A stretch of DNA of 64,000 bases from Acidovorax sp. RAC01 (GTDB lineage Bacteria > Pseudomonadota > Gammaproteobacteria > Burkholderiales > Burkholderiaceae_C). A program made the position numbers and the translations under genes. Below the pieces are notes generated by a model. It ran no database searches, was not told the DNA's origin, and worked only from the letters and a program-made list of their open reading frames with translations. Where the stretch lies: positions 1,689,001 to 1,753,000 of the forward strand of contig NZ_CP016447.1 in the NCBI RefSeq assembly GCF_001714725.1. Reading direction: 5' to 3'. Shown one piece after another: positions 52,160 through 59,000 of this stretch (within the stretch, counting starts at the first letter, position 1; each line of letters opens with the position of its first letter).

Positions 52160-52915
52160 ATGATGTCGTCCGTTCCATCCTGCCCATCGTGCCGCCAGCC
52201 CATGGAGGTGCACCGCTTTGCCAGCCATGCCGGGCCCGAGCTGGAGCTGGACATCTGCTTTGCCTGCCAGGGCATGTGGTTTGACCGGCACGAGAACCTC
52301 AAGCTCGCACCAGCCGCCGTGGTCGGGCTCTTCAAGCTGCTGCACGAGCACCGCGAAGACCAGCACCTGCCCCTGGCAACCAGCATGGCCTGCCCGCGCT
52401 GCGTGGCACCGCTGCAAAAGGGCTTTGACGTGGTGCGCAGCGGCCGCTACATGATCTACCGCTGCGGCCGCCAGCACGGCCGGTTCAGCACGTTCTCGTC
52501 GTTCATGACCGAAAAGGGCTTTGTGCGCCACATGACGCGCCCTGAGATCGACGACATGGCCAAGCGCGTGGGCGCCATCTACTGCACCAGCTGCGGCGCC
52601 CCGGTAGACATCCGCAAAGACCACGCCTGCCCCTACTGCCGCGCCGCGTTCTCGCTGATCGACCCCCAGGCCGTGGCGCGCGCCATGGAGGGCTATGCCG
52701 AAGCCGGCGCGCGCGCAAAGCTGCACGCGGCCCAGGCAGCGCCGGTGGACATCGGCGACGCCCTGGTGGCGCTGGAACGCGACCGCACCCGCGCCGAGCG
52801 CGAGCGCCAGAAAAAGGCCTTCACCAGCACCAGCGATGACGACGACAGCTCCATCACCGGCGACCTGCTGGCGGTGGGCGTCGGGCTGGTGTGGGCGATG
52901 CTCAAGGCGTCCTGA
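52160..52915 (+). CDS. Zinc-ribbon (TFIIB-type) protein
   Basis: A 251-residue protein with zinc-binding pairs in three places: CPSC with CFAC (residues 8-40, ending in the zf-TFIIB phrase CQGMWFDRHENLKL), CPRC with a Cys-Gly-Arg-Gln-His pair (about 78-107), and CTSC with CPYC (about 140-160). A helical, charged region follows (LERDRTRAERERQKK) and a hydrophobic C-terminus (LLAVGVGLVWAMLKAS) that could be a membrane segment. The family is unnamed and function unknown; related proteins often have membrane roles. Confidence 0.75.
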   Translation: MMSSVPSCPSCRQPMEVHRFASHAGPELELDICFACQGMWFDRHENLKLAPAAVVGLFKLLHEHREDQHLPLATSMACPRCVAPLQKGFDVVRSGRYMIYRCGRQHGRFSTFSSFMTEKGFVRHMTRPEIDDMAKRVGAIYCTSCGAPVDIRKDHACPYCRAAFSLIDPQAVARAMEGYAEAGARAKLHAAQAAPVDIGDALVALERDRTRAERERQKKAFTSTSDDDDSSITGDLLAVGVGLVWAMLKAS

Positions 52916-53166
52916 CTCCAAGCCTCCTGGCGCGGCAGCGGCGGGGCAAAAGCACCTCGCCGGGGTACTGCACGGGCATCACACGCGTTCGCACTGCAAC
53001 GCCGGGCCGGCAGGGGCCAAGACACCGGCGGCGCAGCCCTCATTTATCTGCACGGGAGGTGTGGCCAAGTCAAGGCGCAGCCACACAGGACGCTCACAAT
53101 GGTGCGGGTAGCAAGGCCTTCCGGCACCCACCCCCGTGGCCCCGTACGCCATACGAGGAGAGCACC

Positions 53167-54072
53167 GTGCAGCATCCGCCCTCGCGTTCCCGCCGCCCCC
53201 GCACCCCGCGCGCTGGTGCCCCGGAAGCCGCCGCGTGCCTGCTCGACCGCGCGCAGCTGCACGCCGTGCCCAGCACCCTGCTCATCCCGCTGGCCGCGCG
53301 GGCCCATGGCGGCCGGTACTTCCCGTGGCTGGATTGCCAGGATGCCGTAGCGGCCGGCCTGCTCGACCAGCTGGGCGCGGACGTGACCGCCACCCTCAAC
53401 GACCTGCCCACCGTGCTCAACGTGCTGTGGCGCACCCGCGCCATCAAGGACGCCGGGCGCGCGTTTTTCAGCGCGCACGGGCAGGGCCTGGGCGTCAACC
53501 TCGGGTGCGGGCTGGCGCAGCATTTTCAGTGGCTAGACACCGGCCACAACCACTGGCTCGACGCCGACCTGGCCGAGGTGATGGCACTGCGCCAGCGCCT
53601 GCTGGCGCCCCTGGGCCCGCGCGCACGCCACGCCGTGGCCAACCTGGCCCAGCCTGGCTGGTGGCAGCGCCTGCGCCTGCCCGAACGGCACGACACCGCG
53701 CAGCCCGTGCTGCTGGTGTGCGAAGGCGTGCTCATGTACCTGGAGCCCGCACAGGTGCAGGCCGTGCTGGCAGAGTTTGCGCAGCACGCGCCACCCGGCT
53801 CGCGCATGGTGCTGGACGTACTCACCCGCGCCGCCGTGGGCCACGCATCACGCCACGCCAGCATGGCACCCACCGGCGCCGAGTTCCGCTGGGGCGTAGG
53901 CCGCGTGGCCGAGCTGGCCGAGGCCCACCCGCGCCTTGCGGTGCTGCGCGAGCAGAGCGTGGCCGATTGCTATGGGTGGAGCGGCATTGCGTTCGATACC
54001 CTGTGGCGCCCCTGGCTGGGCGCGCCGCTGTATGGGATGGTGACGCTGGGGGTGAGGGATGGGGGCGGCTGA
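53167..54072 (+). CDS. LCM-type (Ppm1/Tcmp-like) SAM-dependent methyltransferase
   Basis: A 301-residue protein of the leucine carboxyl methyltransferase-like family. Landmarks are LLIPLAARAHGGRYFPWLDC, NLPTVLNVLWRT-type region (LNDLPTVLNVLWRTRAIKDA), the SAM loop QGLGVNLGCGLAQHFQWLD, HWLDADLAEVMALRQRLLAP, LLVCEGVLMYLEPAQVQAVL and SGIAFDTLWRPWLGAP. Bacterial members are O-methyltransferases for small acids; the substrate is unknown. A GTG at 53167 preceded by AGGAGAGC is chosen; no ATG lies nearby in frame. The integron-like island begins right after it. Confidence 0.82.
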   Translation: MQHPPSRSRRPRTPRAGAPEAAACLLDRAQLHAVPSTLLIPLAARAHGGRYFPWLDCQDAVAAGLLDQLGADVTATLNDLPTVLNVLWRTRAIKDAGRAFFSAHGQGLGVNLGCGLAQHFQWLDTGHNHWLDADLAEVMALRQRLLAPLGPRARHAVANLAQPGWWQRLRLPERHDTAQPVLLVCEGVLMYLEPAQVQAVLAEFAQHAPPGSRMVLDVLTRAAVGHASRHASMAPTGAEFRWGVGRVAELAEAHPRLAVLREQSVADCYGWSGIAFDTLWRPWLGAPLYGMVTLGVRDGGG

Positions 54073-54253
54073 CGCGGGCGATTGCGCTGTCGTCGTCAGC
54101 CATTTGAGACTGATCGTGCGGAGCCTGCGAAGCGCCGCGCTACAGCAGACTGGCACCGGACGCGTAGCCCGCACGGTTTGGAATGCAAGCCAGCTGGAAG
54201 CTAACCATCGGCTGCTTTGGGCCCGGAGCGGTCCTCGGTGACAATGAACCGGG

Positions 54254-54328
54254 CGTAGCAAAGCCGCCGCTCAACCCGCGCTCTGGCAGCGGCTGTCGTA
54301 GCGGGTCAGCTTGAGCGAGGGTCAGTCC
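54254..54328 (-). repeat. attC-like palindromic site A
   Basis: On the minus strand after the acetyltransferase stop: TGACCCTCGCTCAAGCTGAC then CCCGC, a variable middle, and GCGGGTTGAGC. The GCTCAA/TTGAGC and CCCGC/GCGGG arms pair with an unpaired GCTGA, resembling the L-box stems and extrahelical bases of an integron attC site. The R-box cores are not clear. Confidence 0.4.
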
Positions 54329-54870
54329 TCAGCCCGGGGCAGTGCGTACACATTGCGCTCCTCTCCGTCGGGGAAGCTCTGTCGCCTGACTTGTTGACCT
54401 CCAAGCCTGAGAACTAAGCCAAGTGCCTCGGCGTTGTGGTCGTTCATGTAGGTTTCTACGGTTGCCCACCCGAAGACGTCATAGGCATGCTGCACTGCTG
54501 CGTGGGACGCCTCCTTGGCCAGACCCTGACCGCGGTACCGTGGCAACAGCCACCAAGTCAGTTCGCGTGGCCAGCCTCTGCCCTGCCAGAAGCCGCAGGT
54601 GCCGACGTACTCGCCGTCCGAGGAGCGCTGGACTGCCCAGACGCCAAAGCCCTGGAGGTACCAAGAGCCGAGATCTGCAGACAGACGTGCCCAGGCTGCG
54701 CCGGCTGAGATGGGGCCTCCGTACCCACCTGAAGCTGCACCGTCTGTGTAGAACAGCTCGTAAGCTGCCGTGCAGGCCGCGCTGGGGGCGACGAGACGGA
54801 GTCTTTGGGTTTCAAGTATTGGAATCACTCGGACATCCTGAAAATCGTTGCTCTGCGGCCTGTCGTTCAA
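54322..54870 (-). CDS. GNAT-family N-acetyltransferase (cassette-like)
   Basis: A 182-residue GNAT protein with VIPILETQRLRLVAPSAA at the start, YVGTCGFWQGRGWPRELTW, and acetyl-CoA loop LLPRYRGQGLAKEASHAAV (R-x-x-G-x-G/A), followed by VETYMNDHNAEALGLVLRLG. It looks like RimJ-type acetyltransferases. Target unknown. No ATG fits; a TTG at 54870 is used, and an internal GTG near VIPIL is possible. It is the most downstream gene of a five-gene, same-strand island, less GC-rich than its surroundings. Confidence 0.85.
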   Translation of the reverse strand: MNDRPQSNDFQDVRVIPILETQRLRLVAPSAACTAAYELFYTDGAASGGYGGPISAGAAWARLSADLGSWYLQGFGVWAVQRSSDGEYVGTCGFWQGRGWPRELTWWLLPRYRGQGLAKEASHAAVQHAYDVFGWATVETYMNDHNAEALGLVLRLGGQQVRRQSFPDGEERNVYALPRAED

Positions 54871-54876
54871 GGTCAG

Positions 54877-54929
54877 GGTTAGTGCGCGGCCTTGTCTCGC
54901 AGCGTCCCCTGCACCGCAGTGTTGGCCAG
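54877..54929 (-). repeat. attC-like site B (degenerate)
   Basis: Minus-strand GGCCAACACTGCGGTGCAGG at one end and CGCGCACTAACC at the other, between the reductase stop and the acetyltransferase start. It resembles attC R-boxes at the ends but is poorly conserved. Confidence 0.3.
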
Positions 54930-54942
54930 CAGATTTGGACGA

Positions 54943-55536
54943 CTACGACCACTTTGCAAGCACTCGCTGAATACGCGAACAAAACAGATCGATTTCGGCC
55001 GGCGTTGATTGCTCCGCCTTGTAGAGCGACAGCATCTCGAATCTGCAAGCCGGCGCACACGTTCCCAAGAGAGCGGTTTTCAGCACGCGCTTGACGGGCT
55101 GCCAGAGCACCAGACGATCAACCCACCAAGGCGAGCCGAGCGAAGTGACAGCGAGAGCCTTCCCAAGTTTGTGGAGCCGCGGCTTGATTGGGCCGAGATC
55201 ACTCGCATGATCGTAGGCGATACCTGGCGCCCAGACACGGTCAAACCAGCCCTTCAAGATAGCGGGGAAACTGAACCACCAAGTAGGAAAAACAAGCACG
55301 ATAGCTTCGGCGGAGAGCAAGCGGTCGGCCTGTGACCGAACGGACGCAGCGTCAAAGGCAGGGCCGTAGTAGCTCCGGCGTTCACTGGCTGTTAACGCAG
55401 GCGAAAACTCAGATTGGTAGAGGTCTTCGATCTGTACTTCATGACCGGCTTTTGTCAGCGCATCGACGACGCTACGCGCCATGGCGTGGCAGGCACTGTC
55501 CGCAAGCGGGTGGGCTATTACAACGAGACACTTCAT
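54943..55536 (-). CDS. NAD(P)H dehydrogenase (quinone)/flavodoxin-fold reductase (cassette-like)
   Basis: A 197-residue flavodoxin-fold protein of the NQO1/KefF/WrbA-like group. The N-terminus is KCLVVIAHPLADSACHAMAR, followed by LYQSEFSPALTASERRSYYG, AIVLVFPTWWFSFPAILKGW and FDRVWAPGIAYDH. Family members are FMN or FAD quinone reductases. ATG 55536 is preferred; it lies about 40 bases after the attC-like site C. It is part of the minus-strand island. Confidence 0.85.
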   Translation of the reverse strand: MKCLVVIAHPLADSACHAMARSVVDALTKAGHEVQIEDLYQSEFSPALTASERRSYYGPAFDAASVRSQADRLLSAEAIVLVFPTWWFSFPAILKGWFDRVWAPGIAYDHASDLGPIKPRLHKLGKALAVTSLGSPWWVDRLVLWQPVKRVLKTALLGTCAPACRFEMLSLYKAEQSTPAEIDLFCSRIQRVLAKWS

Positions 55537-55562
55537 CGTGAGAATGACCGAGGAGCCGAGGT

Positions 55563-55700
55563 GCTCATGCCGGCTCACGCTCGAAAAAAGCGGGCGACGA
55601 CGGCAGGGCGCCAGGGCCTGGTTGGCGACAACGTACCGCGTTCCACCAGACGGGGCTTGGTGGCCTTCCGTTGGCGCTGCGCTTGAACGCGGGGTCAGGC
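55563..55700 (-). repeat. attC-like site C (best preserved)
   Basis: Minus strand, from the upstream gene's stop: GCCTGACCCCGCGTTCAAGC (attC R''/L''-like), a stem CCACCA/TGGTGG with GCGTTC/GAACGC outer arms, then CGAGCGTGAGCC at the far end. The last 52 bases align with the segment at 56688-56740 (shared GACG, CGGCAG, AGGG, CCTGGT words in order). The length of about 138 bases is within the attC range. Confidence 0.5.
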
Positions 55701-56168
55701 ATCGCGCCGCACCGGCAGCACGCCGTATGCCTGCATGGCAGACGCGGCCTGGGACTCTTCCGTGGTCTCGGTGGGATAGAGCCGATAGCTTGGCGCCAGG
55801 ATGGCCTCGACAGCTTCCGCCTTCACGACAAACACGCTCTGAATGGCGAACCTTGGGCCTGCCATTTCTACGAGCCGAGTCGCCCAGCGGACGAAGTCAG
55901 GGTCATTTCTCCTGACATTGCGGGCTGCGCCGGTGACTTTGAACCCCTTCTGGGCAAAGACGTCGATGAATGCGACGCACACACGAGCGTTCCGCTCGAT
56001 GTTGCGCGCGCTCCCTGCCGACGCGATGTTTGCAATGACGAGATGGTCACTGTCAAAAACGGCAAAGATTTCCTTCGGAGAGACGTTCGGCTGACCGGAT
56101 TCGTCAACCGTTGCGAGCCAGCACAGCACGCTGCGACGTGCAAAGTCCTTAACCGATATTGAAAGCAT
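55695..56168 (-). CDS. Pyridoxamine 5'-phosphate oxidase-like FMN-binding protein (cassette-like)
   Basis: A 157-residue split-barrel protein: SVLCWLATVDESGQPNVSPK, DSDHLVIANIASAGSARNIE, VCVAFIDVFAQKGFKVTGAA, then a C-terminal helix. This matches small PNPOx-like flavin-binding proteins, often of unknown reaction. ATG 56168 is preferred over the upstream start at 56336, which would run through the repeat. The stop lies inside attC-like site C. Confidence 0.82.
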   Translation of the reverse strand: MLSISVKDFARRSVLCWLATVDESGQPNVSPKEIFAVFDSDHLVIANIASAGSARNIERNARVCVAFIDVFAQKGFKVTGAARNVRRNDPDFVRWATRLVEMAGPRFAIQSVFVVKAEAVEAILAPSYRLYPTETTEESQAASAMQAYGVLPVRRDA

Positions 56169-56194
56169 GATCGCCGCAAAGGTTTGATTGCGAT

Positions 56195-56280
56195 GCTCAA
56201 CGTCGCCGCTCAGCCGGCGCCGGAGGTGGTCGGATGCAGTGGCCTGTCCGCCGCCTGGTGCACAGAAGCCGAGGGGCTCA
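56195..56280 (-). repeat. attC-like site D (degenerate)
   Basis: Minus-strand segment between the upstream VOC gene's stop and the PNPOx-like start, ending in GGCGACGTTGAGC, where GTTGAGC fits the attC R' consensus GTTRRRY. The left R'' partner is not conserved. Confidence 0.35.
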
Positions 56281-56667
56281 CTTTTCGCTCTCGCTCCAGG
56301 GGCTGCAGATATCAATGAGGCAGCCATTCGGATCAACCGTCAAGAAGCGCCGCTGGCCATAGAACTCGTTCTTCGGCTCTTGGGCAATGACAAGACCCAA
56401 GGCCTTTGCCTTGAAGTAGACGGCATCAACGTCTGGAACTACGAACGTGACGTACATGCCCGTCGGCGCGTTCTGAAACCTTGCCGGAACCAGCTCATTG
56501 GTTCGGGCAATGATTCCGAACTCAAGCTCGTGATTTGTAGGGCAACGCAACTGAACATACCAATCACTGTCGTAGTTGACCTCAAACCCAAGAAGCGCGA
56601 CATAGAAATCGCGACTTTCGCTCAAACGATCGGAGCAAATGTTGGTCAGTATTCGCGTGAACGACAT
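56278..56667 (-). CDS. Glyoxalase/VOC-family protein (cassette-like, first)
   Basis: A 129-residue vicinal oxygen chelate protein: TRILTNICSDRLSESRDFYV, LLGFEVNYDSDWYVQLRCPT, MYVTFVVPDVDAVYFKAKAL and FLTVDPNGCLIDICSPW. Such small proteins act as metal-dependent lyases, dioxygenases or drug-binding resistance proteins; the function is not resolved. The ATG at 56667 lies 21 bases after the end of the repeat at 56688, the close spacing usual in gene cassettes. Confidence 0.85.
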   Translation of the reverse strand: MSFTRILTNICSDRLSESRDFYVALLGFEVNYDSDWYVQLRCPTNHELEFGIIARTNELVPARFQNAPTGMYVTFVVPDVDAVYFKAKALGLVIAQEPKNEFYGQRRFLTVDPNGCLIDICSPWSESEK

Positions 56668-56687
56668 GTGGGTCCTTCGTACGAGAT

Positions 56688-56740
56688 GGTTAACGTTCGA
56701 GCCAAGCAGGCGACGGCAGCAGGGCGATAGGGCCCTGGTG
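56688..56740 (-). repeat. attC-like site E, overlapping the end of the next gene
   Basis: Minus-strand segment ending GGCTCGAACGTTAACC, which resembles the R' end of attC sites. It aligns over about 52 bases with 55571-55622 in site C. The upstream VOC gene reads through it, replacing its natural C-terminus with sequence encoded by the repeat. Confidence 0.45.
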
Positions 56741-57139
56741 GGGGCATGATAGCGCGGCGGCAAACGCCGCGTGCTCGTAGGTTGTGATCTCGTACGGGTT
56801 GCTGTCCGGGTCCGAAAAGTAGATCGAGAACGAAACCTCATGATCTTCAATTTCTACCCGCAGTCCCGAGGCTTGCAAGTGCGTGAACCAGTGGTGGAGC
56901 CCGGCTGCTGAGGTTCGAAGGGCGATCGTTGCTCGGTTGGGTTGAGGCGCCCGCTCAAACAGTGCCATGTGAACGGTGTTCGCTGAGTCCTGCACTGTCA
57001 GTGGACCACCGTCCATGGCCCAAAACTCGAGGCTCGGACTGCGGGAAAGCCCGAGCACTTGGGCGTACCAGCGCTCTGCGGCATTCCGATCCCGCACGAA
57101 GACGTGAACGTGGTCGATCCCAGACAGTGGTGGAGTCAT
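56690..57139 (-). CDS. Glyoxalase/VOC-family protein (cassette-like, second)
   Basis: A 149-residue VOC protein: SGIDHVHVFVRDRNAAERWY, AQVLGLSRSPSLEFWAMDGG, HHWFTHLQASGLRVEIEDHE and IYFSDPDSNPYEITTYEH. The domain should end near TTYE. The last 20 or so residues are encoded by the attC-like repeat, so its stop appears to be derived from it. It is the first gene of the minus-strand island. The metal-ligand pattern (His, Glu) suggests glyoxalase or resistance-type function, not determined. Confidence 0.85.
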   Translation of the reverse strand: MTPPLSGIDHVHVFVRDRNAAERWYAQVLGLSRSPSLEFWAMDGGPLTVQDSANTVHMALFERAPQPNRATIALRTSAAGLHHWFTHLQASGLRVEIEDHEVSFSIYFSDPDSNPYEITTYEHAAFAAALSCPHQGPIALLPSPAWLER

Positions 57140-57300
57140 GGCAGACGTTCGTGTCGAAGGGTTTCGAGTATGACGGTGACGCCCAATGTGCTTTAGACGG
57201 CAGCGTCAAAAGCTGACGTGATCATATAGCCCTGAGTCGACGAGGGCCGGGAGTCGCAACCGCATCGCACGGCCCGCAAGCGGTCACCGAAGTCTGCCCG

Positions 57301-57552
57301 CTATTGGCCGATTTCGGACACCGTCCCAGCAAAGCCGCTGTCATCCGTCGAGCGCTCAAGCTCTGCCTTGTGCAAAGTCCAAAGATCAGTGGCGCTAATC
57401 CTTGCATATAAATCTCCCGTGTCGCACGCAACGAGATTCCAATACCGCAAGCGCCTCCGCCTCACAGTTGACTGCTGCCAACCTTCCCCGAAACGATCAA
57501 GCCACAGCCCACTCAACGCAGCGCCGCAGGCCCCGCTACCCACTGCGCCCAA
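57301..57552 (-). pseudogene. Unassigned ORF or gene remnant
   Basis: An 83-residue frame in the 57140-57512 spacer. The middle (QQSTVRRRRLRYWNLVACDT, then ARISATDLWTLHKAELE) has balanced composition and a lower GC than the flanks, like a real gene fragment. It overlaps the end of the hydroxylase gene and has no recognisable family. It may be a broken cassette or an unrelated remnant. The rest of 57140-57300 shows no gene. Confidence 0.25.
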
Positions 57553-58802
57553 GCAGGCGGCTTGCCCGTAAGTTGCCCCACGATGGCCGCCTGCAGCGGC
57601 GGCAGGCGGCGGGCGCCCTGCAGCACCAGCTGGCGCAGCAGACGGGGCACCGGGCGGGCGTCGGTGTACAGCCGCACGATGGCGTTGGTGCCCTGGTAGA
57701 TGGGCCAGGCGTGGCGGTGGTGGGCGCGGGCGTAGCTGGCCAGCACGTCGGCGCTGCCAATGTCCTGCCCCTTCCGGCGCTCAGCCACCAGTACCGCCAC
57801 CAGCCGTTCGACCCCCGCCAGCCCCAGGTTGTAGCCATGCGCCGTGACCGGGTGCATGCCCACGGCGGCGTCGCCAAGCAGGGCGCAGCGGTGACCCGAA
57901 AACCGGTCGGCATAGGCGGCCACCAAGGGGTAGGCGTGGCGCTCACCCACCAGTGCCATGGGACCCAGGCGGTGGGCAAACTGGGCCTGCACCTGGGCTG
58001 CAAAGGCTGCGGGGTCCAGCGCCATCAGGGCGGCGGCGTCGGCCGCACCGGCGGTGACCACCACCGAGCACAGCGCGTGGCCATGTTCCGGGTCATCGGG
58101 CAGGGGCAGCACGGCCAGGGTGCGTTCGTAGCCAAAGCATTCGTGCGCCACGTTGCCGTGCGGCTGCGCGTGGCGCATGCGGCAGACGATGACGGTGCGG
58201 CCAAAGTCGGTCATCTGCGCGCCCAGGCCCAGCTGGCGGCGCGTGGCAGAAAAGCGGCTGTCGGCGGCCACCAGCAGCGGGGCGTGCAGGCGCTGCGGGC
58301 CGTTCTCGCCATCGGCCACGTAGTCCAGCGCGGCCAGCGGGCCGTGGGTGGACACCCGTGTGACCTGCGCGCCGGTGAGGATGCGCACCCCCGACATGCG
58401 CTGCGCCACGGCGAAGGCGCTGCGGCGCAGGGCGTGGTTGGGCACGATGAAACCCAGCGGGCCGGGCGCGGCCGCTGCGGGCGTGGTTCCCGTACCGGCG
58501 TTGCCCGCGTTCAGCTGCAGCGCTCCGTGCTGGCCCAGCGGGCCGTCGTGCACCTGGGCCTCGTGGATTTCGCCCACCTCGTGCGGGGGCAGCGCGTTCC
58601 AGCTGCCCAGCCGCTGCAGTGTGGCGCGGCTGGGGTGGGTCAATGCGATCTCGCGGCCGTCGGGGGCCGGGTCGGCCAGTGTGGCGGCGGGCAGTTGCTC
58701 GACCACCGTGGCGGTGAAGCCAGCTTGCGAGAGCGCAATGGCCAGCGACAGGCCCGCCGGGCCGGCGCCAACGATGAGGACGTCACTGTCAGGGGATGTC
58801 AT
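57513..58802 (-). CDS. UbiH/COQ6-family FAD-dependent hydroxylase
   Basis: A 429-residue flavoprotein monooxygenase of the UbiH/UbiF/UbiM group, used in ubiquinone ring hydroxylation. The N-terminus has the dinucleotide motif SDVLIVGAGPAGLSLAIALS. LVAADSRFSATRRQLGL is the DG-like motif, and CALLGDAAVGMHPVTAHGYN with LGLAGVERLVAVL is the second FAD motif. The tail PPLQAAIVGQLTGK and the overall form suggest UbiM, but this is not certain. ATG 58802 starts the family N-terminus. Confidence 0.85.
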   Translation of the reverse strand: MTSPDSDVLIVGAGPAGLSLAIALSQAGFTATVVEQLPAATLADPAPDGREIALTHPSRATLQRLGSWNALPPHEVGEIHEAQVHDGPLGQHGALQLNAGNAGTGTTPAAAAPGPLGFIVPNHALRRSAFAVAQRMSGVRILTGAQVTRVSTHGPLAALDYVADGENGPQRLHAPLLVAADSRFSATRRQLGLGAQMTDFGRTVIVCRMRHAQPHGNVAHECFGYERTLAVLPLPDDPEHGHALCSVVVTAGAADAAALMALDPAAFAAQVQAQFAHRLGPMALVGERHAYPLVAAYADRFSGHRCALLGDAAVGMHPVTAHGYNLGLAGVERLVAVLVAERRKGQDIGSADVLASYARAHHRHAWPIYQGTNAIVRLYTDARPVPRLLRQLVLQGARRLPPLQAAIVGQLTGKPPAWAQWVAGPAALR

Positions 58803-58907
58803 GGCAGGAGCGCGGGTGGCACCCGCTGTGTAAGGCAGGGCGCCATTGTGTTGGCGCCCGCCGGTGCGGGGTTTGCCGTGGGTCAACCTCTGGGGACGCT
58901 CTGCACC

Positions 58908-59000
58908 CATCAGCGCGCCGTGGGCATCTGCGGGCTCGGGCGCTCTGCTGCGTTGCCACTCGCAACAGCTGCGGGTATTCCGGCGTTCTGCGTTCTGCGT
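58908..59000. repeat. Dispersed palindromic repeat copy
   Basis: Contains CAGCGCGCCGTGGGCATCTG and CTGCTGCGTTGCCACTCGCA, closely matching the element at 7792-7945. It lies in the 502-base spacer 58803-59304, which holds no gene but at least three repeats. Confidence 0.55.

Follow-up and report, generated by a model that had tools for sequence, protein, structure and literature searches.

Between an LCM methyltransferase gene and a UbiH-like monooxygenase gene, the chromosome of Acidovorax sp. RAC01 carries a block of five small-enzyme genes which very probably represents a decayed CALIN (cluster of attC sites lacking integron integrase) of five gene cassettes. The stretch analysed, here called the window, comprises 64,000 nt (NZ_CP016447.1, positions 1,689,001-1,753,000), and coordinates refer to it unless noted otherwise. 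All five genes are located on the minus strand. In reading order these are two VOC (glyoxalase-fold) genes, termed VOC gene 1 (57139-56690; PF00903, 32.9 bits) and VOC gene 2 (56667-56278; PF00903, 38.1 bits on a longer open reading frame, ORF), a PNPOx-like gene (56168-55695; PF01243, 61 bits), a Flavodoxin_2 or NAD(P)H quinone reductase-like gene (55536-54943; PF02525, 115.9 bits) and a GNAT acetyltransferase gene (54870-54322; PF13302, 70.1 bits). The ORFs and their Pfam matches confirm the gene families and the common strand named in a first-pass annotation of this DNA, whose interpretation as a cassette cluster is supported in its core. In the following, G and L with a number denote genomes and loci, respectively. 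G000 is the genome of RAC01 itself and L196 a second copy of the block.

The spacers were searched for attC sites using covariance models, an approach the first-pass annotation had suggested. The models were built in this analysis and differ from IntegronFinder's own. R1 was derived from 22 aligned attCs of nine other genomes of the genus; sites of RAC01, those in the window included, and of its nearest relative G022 are not part of it. R2 is based on 101 R1 matches from 30 loci at E≤0.15, none of them from the window or L196, and was searched with filters off over the window and L196 together. In the window R1 yields two matches at E≤10, both in spacers of the block: site C with 27.7 bits (E=1.5e-4) and site A with 13.3 bits (E=0.61). 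At the same threshold the LCM/UbiH loci of relatives that served as control (33 loci, 260,977 b) gave a single match, of 12.6 bits. Over the 4.57-Mb chromosome (E≤10, 150 of 4053 candidates scored) R1 gave five matches: site C (E=0.010), a pair in an intact integron, a single one at 617 kb and another next to an intI fragment at 1.09 Mb. The top three window matches of R2 are site C (25.5 bits, E=3e-4), site D (18.9 bits, E=0.017) and site B (16.6 bits, E=0.064); the fourth reaches 11.1 bits and falls within the PNPOx gene. At least two attC sites, as a CALIN is defined to contain, are recognised by these two models of our own. A strict finder for R'' and R' boxes found known attCs of relatives and none of the window sites, its sole match in the region lying inside a VOC gene; hence the covariance models were used instead.

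Pairwise comparisons with intact attCs of other genomes were evaluated against shuffled sequences. No shuffle out of 2000 was as good for site A (compared with G028), sites C and E (both with G022) or site D (with G015), and 13 of 2000 were for site B, whose partner is the attC that follows the homologous gene of G024. Model matches, pairwise shuffles and a nearly empty control confirm that the repeats the first-pass annotation had seen in the spacers exceed chance.

All five sites are oriented like the genes. Site A (54247-54327, minus strand) is a damaged attC behind the GNAT gene, the left half of which matches the intact attC of G028; a second reading lets it end at the GTTGAGC of 54269-54275. 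Site B (54858-54927, minus strand) is a damaged attC behind the Flavodoxin_2 gene. Site C (55572-55700, minus strand) is a long attC and the best preserved one; the stop codon of the PNPOx-like gene lies within its R''. Site D (56195-56252, minus strand) has kept the R' box GTTGAGC, has lost R'' and is 86-89% identical over 56 b to attCs of G015 and G002. Site E (56688-56745, minus strand) consists of the right half only. Sites C and E are alike (78% over 50 b), as had been noted before. With respect to the boxes, R'' reads TGAC in place of TAAC at sites A and C and GGCGGAC at site D. R' is damaged at site B, at site C (GTGAGCC) and, on the model's reading, also at site A, while D and E retain GTTRRRY R' boxes.

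The bottom-strand folding that had been proposed as a check did not turn out in favour of functional sites. As single-stranded DNA, sites A, B, C and D fold no better than shuffles (45, 147, 35 and 31 of 200 as good, respectively), whereas the intact attCs from G022 and G015 were equalled by 0 and 6 of 200 shuffles. Intact R boxes combined with a stable bottom-strand fold, which characterise a recombination-competent cassette array, are therefore missing. Given the damaged boxes, the loss of half of site E and the poor folds, excision should be rare or absent despite an intact IntI encoded elsewhere in the chromosome.

Each of the five genes has homologs in or directly beside attCs in other genomes. 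A Flavodoxin_2 homolog in G024 (73% amino acid identity) sits between two attCs, and 7 of 19 further named-genome loci scanned (80 fetched) have an attC directly before or after this gene, one of them at E=0.18. GNAT homologs between attCs are present in G136 (two copies, 67-68%) and G250 (60%). The VOC gene 2 homolog in G383 (73%) is followed by an attC, and the homologs of PNPOx in G104 (67%) and of VOC gene 1 in G243 (72%) each directly follow one. The distribution is patchy: among 399 genomes of the family, its own included, VOC gene 2 was found in 4, GNAT in 18, PNPOx in 19 and VOC gene 1 in 19 at the cut-offs used. Scanned loci with any attC match amount to 1/3 for VOC gene 2, 3/18 for GNAT, 2/18 for PNPOx and 1/19 for VOC gene 1, so that the GNAT, PNPOx and VOC families are not confined to integrons. 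A scan of the block for sigma-70-like promoters found none (0.7 expected by chance). Order and strand, the promoter scan and the homologs beside attCs describe cassette-type genes, i.e. promoterless, in one direction and with one attC each. Of 72,556 records in a plasmid collection, two show similarity to the block: one aligns with the PNPOx gene, the other with 85 b of site C. Viral contigs searched for VOC gene 2 contained no relative.

The block has a GC content of 60.0% compared to 66.9% in the window, and GC3 (GC at third codon positions) of its genes is 0.64-0.70 versus 0.86-0.93 in six neighbouring genes. The reported drop in GC is thus real, but GC falls to 59.7% in another stretch of the window of equal length; low GC by itself is not unique to the block. 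GC3 is foreign and was counted in favour of the cassette reading.

A second copy of the whole 3.1-kb block with 98% identity and other flanks is located on the lake metagenome bin contig CAIKLM010000122.1 (L196). The limits of this identity (54222-57310, minus strand) define the mobile block as a whole. Comparing the two copies across the five genes reveals 29 differences (12 synonymous, 17 non-synonymous), which gives a ratio of non-synonymous to synonymous changes per site (pN/pS) of about 0.44 based on few changes (for VOC gene 1 over 129 codons). Neither copy has a disrupted reading frame in any of the five genes. Both copies have the same damaged R'' boxes at sites A, C and D, indicating that most of the decay predates their split. 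Site E of L196 has 72 bp that are absent from the window, and VOC gene 1 there encodes 130 amino acids and ends before the attC. The missing 72 bp explain why the window gene reads through its repeat (149 amino acids), an observation of the first-pass annotation that holds. The long site E of L196 is 81% identical to site C over 113 b and resembles a whole attC; the difference is hence read as a deletion in the window's line.

In the L196 genome no integron integrase exceeds the cut-off (best 83.3 bits) and the best UbiH match is only 31%, so that it is either outside this genus or incomplete. Pieces of the contig have 61-69% GC compared to 72-75% in 13 other contigs sampled. Scanning 30 of its ORFs revealed tni and metal-resistance genes: TniA-like, TniB and TniQ proteins are encoded along with two RND pumps, three P-type ATPases and a multicopper oxidase. 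Genes for priA and pullulanase are also present. The contig is an island in that chromosome or misbinned, and either way its context differs from that of the window. A block of 98% identity in an unrelated context implies a move as one unit, and the whole array indeed seems to have moved in one piece. The assumption of an ancient, fixed array accordingly stands for the attCs, which decayed mostly before the move, but not for the location of the block.

Several observations speak against cassettes. Apart from the unremarkable folds of sites A-D, site A is by itself near background in view of the 12.6-bit control match, and R2 gives it only 8.7 bits. The R2 training set includes two relatives of site D, whose support by this model is hence not fully independent. 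On L196 the site E of intact length reaches only 9.4 bits with R2, which is near background, and R1 has no match there at E≤2. Moreover, most other GNAT, PNPOx and VOC homologs lack an attC within the fetched flanks.

The LCM gene (ORF 52891-54072, plus strand, true start further inside; PF04072, 45.9 bits) and the UbiH-like FAD monooxygenase gene (57513-58910, minus strand; PF01494, 81.7 bits) both point into the block. Of 34 UbiH loci fetched from other genomes of the genus, 24 have the two genes as neighbours, the alignment ends being 36-414 nt apart as compared to 3.4 kb in the window; one of the remaining loci is cut by a contig end and nine lack LCM in the fetched stretch. A DNA search of 47 genomes of the genus, the own one included (six candidates scored each), found no second copy of the block. 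The comparison with relatives proposed earlier hence reveals no conserved five-gene block: the longest match in the 46 other genomes is 592 b, in the Flavodoxin_2 gene of G024. With this result and the attC model matches, neither of the outcomes that the first-pass annotation had named as refuting its reading was obtained. The nearest relative is G022 (LCM 93% amino acid identity; UbiH 89% over the 142 residues present on its contig). Its slot (L075 = G022:C12:1-3971) harbours two different cassettes, whose attCs score well with R1 (64.6 and 48.6 bits), and an attI-like remnant. The direction is opposite to that of the window array, and the slot has no intI and none of the five block genes. 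An intergenic stretch beside LCM, termed block1 (54082-54233), is shared with G022 (88% to L075), matches L082 and L083 at 80% and 78%, respectively, and also lies beside attI-like remnants in G044. Given the G022 array and these remnants, an integron probably held the slot before the split from G022, whereby a common origin would link the two slots.

Based on these data the window array could be what remains of that ancestral slot integron after it lost intI and attI and was inverted, a copy leaving later for the L196 contig. Loss of intI with cassettes kept is, like off-target insertion and rearrangement, a proposed origin of CALINs (excerpt of PMC8618304), and block1 and the slot are common to the window and G022. 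Such decay in place is possible, but we consider it rather unlikely, as the G022 array runs in the opposite direction without any of the five genes, and the window copy lacks the 72 bp kept by L196 and cannot be its parent in its present form. In addition, a blastn search with the attI region of G022 found nothing in the window apart from block1, and no attI remnant was found on the UbiH side.

The statement that the cluster is without an integrase holds locally. TIGR02249 detects no intI in the window, and blastn no attI remnant apart from block1; the cluster is thus not accompanied by the two elements that a complete integron has in cis. The whole genome nevertheless contains one intact integron integrase above cut-off (458.9 bits), 1.54 Mb from the block on the same chromosome and with its own cassettes. 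This intact integron (L017:1-3300, G000:C1:3284501-3287800) consists of intI, an attI-like region, four cassette-type ORFs and three attCs by R1, and it also has a degenerate site resembling site C. A broken second integron (L018:8478-10157, G000:C1 1.093-1.095 Mb) has a 142-aa ORF with part of IntI, a 319-aa ORF and one attC (R1 26.3 bits). In the genus, 11 of 47 genomes, the own one included, have an intI over the cut-off.

The intact IntI at 3.28 Mb might have inserted cassettes one by one at a secondary site, which would make the array a slowly active satellite. Off-target insertion of this kind has been proposed for CALINs (excerpt of PMC8618304), and the R' boxes kept at D and E would fit. 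We regard this as improbable, since the attCs are decayed and fold poorly, the searches run found no two cassettes in both loci, and a block shared whole with L196 was not built up at this site one cassette at a time once the copies had split. It is highly improbable, and already largely refuted, that the block is an ordinary horizontally acquired small-enzyme cluster with REP-like or terminator-like palindromes in its spacers: weak model scores at A, B and E, the folds and the lack of a nearby attC for most homologs of four genes would agree with it, but the E-value of site C, D and B ranking next over the whole window, the similarity of each spacer to an intact attC from elsewhere, the genuine cassettes that occupy this slot in G022 and only 2 terminator-like sites where 3.2 are expected do not.

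For the decayed CALIN we propose the following course. An integron integrase would once have lined up the five cassettes via attC recombination. An integron would have occupied the slot before the split from G022, and the present array would have arrived or left as one piece; the direction and vehicle of that move we infer. The array now lies between the convergent LCM and UbiH genes, and all of its attCs are damaged, with altered R boxes or, in the case of E, only half of the site left. Excision would then be rare or absent, and the five genes would persist as ordinary accessory genes, as their open frames and the pN/pS value suggest.

Seven arrays of six genomes (G030, G022, G002 twice, G025, G012 and G028; loci L074, L075, L078, L079, L089, L091 and L093) share the sequence behind their last attC. 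It is 84% identical to the consensus over 54 columns and drops to 47% thereafter; in the 0.2-3 kb beyond the shared ends no mutual blastn match was found at E 1e-5, and the flanks are unrelated. Sharing ends at a GGCC-centred palindrome. Similar palindromes contain or adjoin the limits of the window block, the end of the G022 homology and the L196 limits, the breakpoints on both sides being at or close to the GGCC centre. A motif was derived from the two limits in the window, and its scores there are therefore circular. At ≥16/24 it occurs 32 times in 20 integron loci of the genus (238,858 b; 11 of these in the two loci of G044), once in 34 control loci (262,788 b), 19 times in 400 kb of the own genome and 20 times in 338 kb of G440. 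Means for 60 shuffled motifs were 15.4 in integron loci and 21.2 in control loci, with maxima of 43 and 75. At ≥18/24 it occurs six times in integron loci, not at all in the controls and the 400 kb of the own genome, and once in the 338 kb of G440, right at the limit of L196. Outside the window only these high scores are clearly enriched, and they and the shared array end alone carry weight.

We tentatively suggest, though we would sooner doubt than expect it, that whole cassette arrays of the genus move as units without IntI, by recombination or transposition at shared palindromic ends. If so, integrase-less arrays with dead attCs could take each other's place in a fixed slot and be carried along by tni-type islands. 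In the flank of the second block copy, degenerate copies of the palindrome also occur about 103 b apart (L196:3812-4170).

CALINs are about as common as complete integrons (2961 vs 2760; excerpt of PMC9024848) and are thought to be degraded integrons. The block resembles them in its same-strand cassette-type genes, each with an attC-like site, and in the absence of a nearby intI. It differs in that all attCs are damaged, the whole array recurs at 98% identity in a second, unrelated context and a relative holds another array in the slot. In Xanthomonas, recurrent CALIN loci and mobilization in trans have been described (PMC12444791). As far as the excerpt of that report goes, its CALINs away from ilvD are likewise cassette clusters at recurrent chromosomal places far from intI. 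Their positions are conserved within species, in contrast to our case where sister genomes differ in what the slot contains and in its direction, and where the block has moved out of its slot. The chromosomal integrons of Betaproteobacteria, for which capture by tni (Tn402-like) transposons is described, are also short arrays of non-resistance cassettes (excerpt of PMC5460862), and tni genes are present on the L196 contig. Here, unlike there, the array has no intI, and the tni genes are about 17 kb off.

What is less usual here is the sharing of an attC-dead array as a whole, its breakpoints lying close to a palindromic sequence at the array end. In titles and abstract openings we found no description of the locus, of such array-end exchange or of distant genomes that have an array with dead attCs in common as one unit and with breakpoints at a shared end, which is no proof of absence. 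How CALINs arise and spread has been argued mostly from single snapshots. With a decayed array in two contexts and another array in the slot of a sister genome, integrase-free spread of dead arrays as units becomes testable, and likewise the role of the common array-end sequence.

Some minor features remain. Rfam at gathering thresholds has no match in the window and one (SRP RNA) in three loci of the own genome. For the small ORF 57301-57552, Pfam returned no match. The TTG start listed for the GNAT ORF falls within site B, and the true start is probably near 54828. The ATG of the Flavodoxin_2 gene at 55536 lies inside a longer ORF (54943-55578). A lone attC-like site (G000:C1:617578-617706, L130:1501-1629; R1 28.9 bits) is far from any intI match. 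In L074 (G030:C164) a partial intI (profile residues 114-315) is arranged unusually beside an attI-like region and block1-like sequence, possibly due to an inversion. G015 has two attI-like regions in one genome (C68 and C62; L080 and L090), with an intI in the fetched stretch for only one of them.

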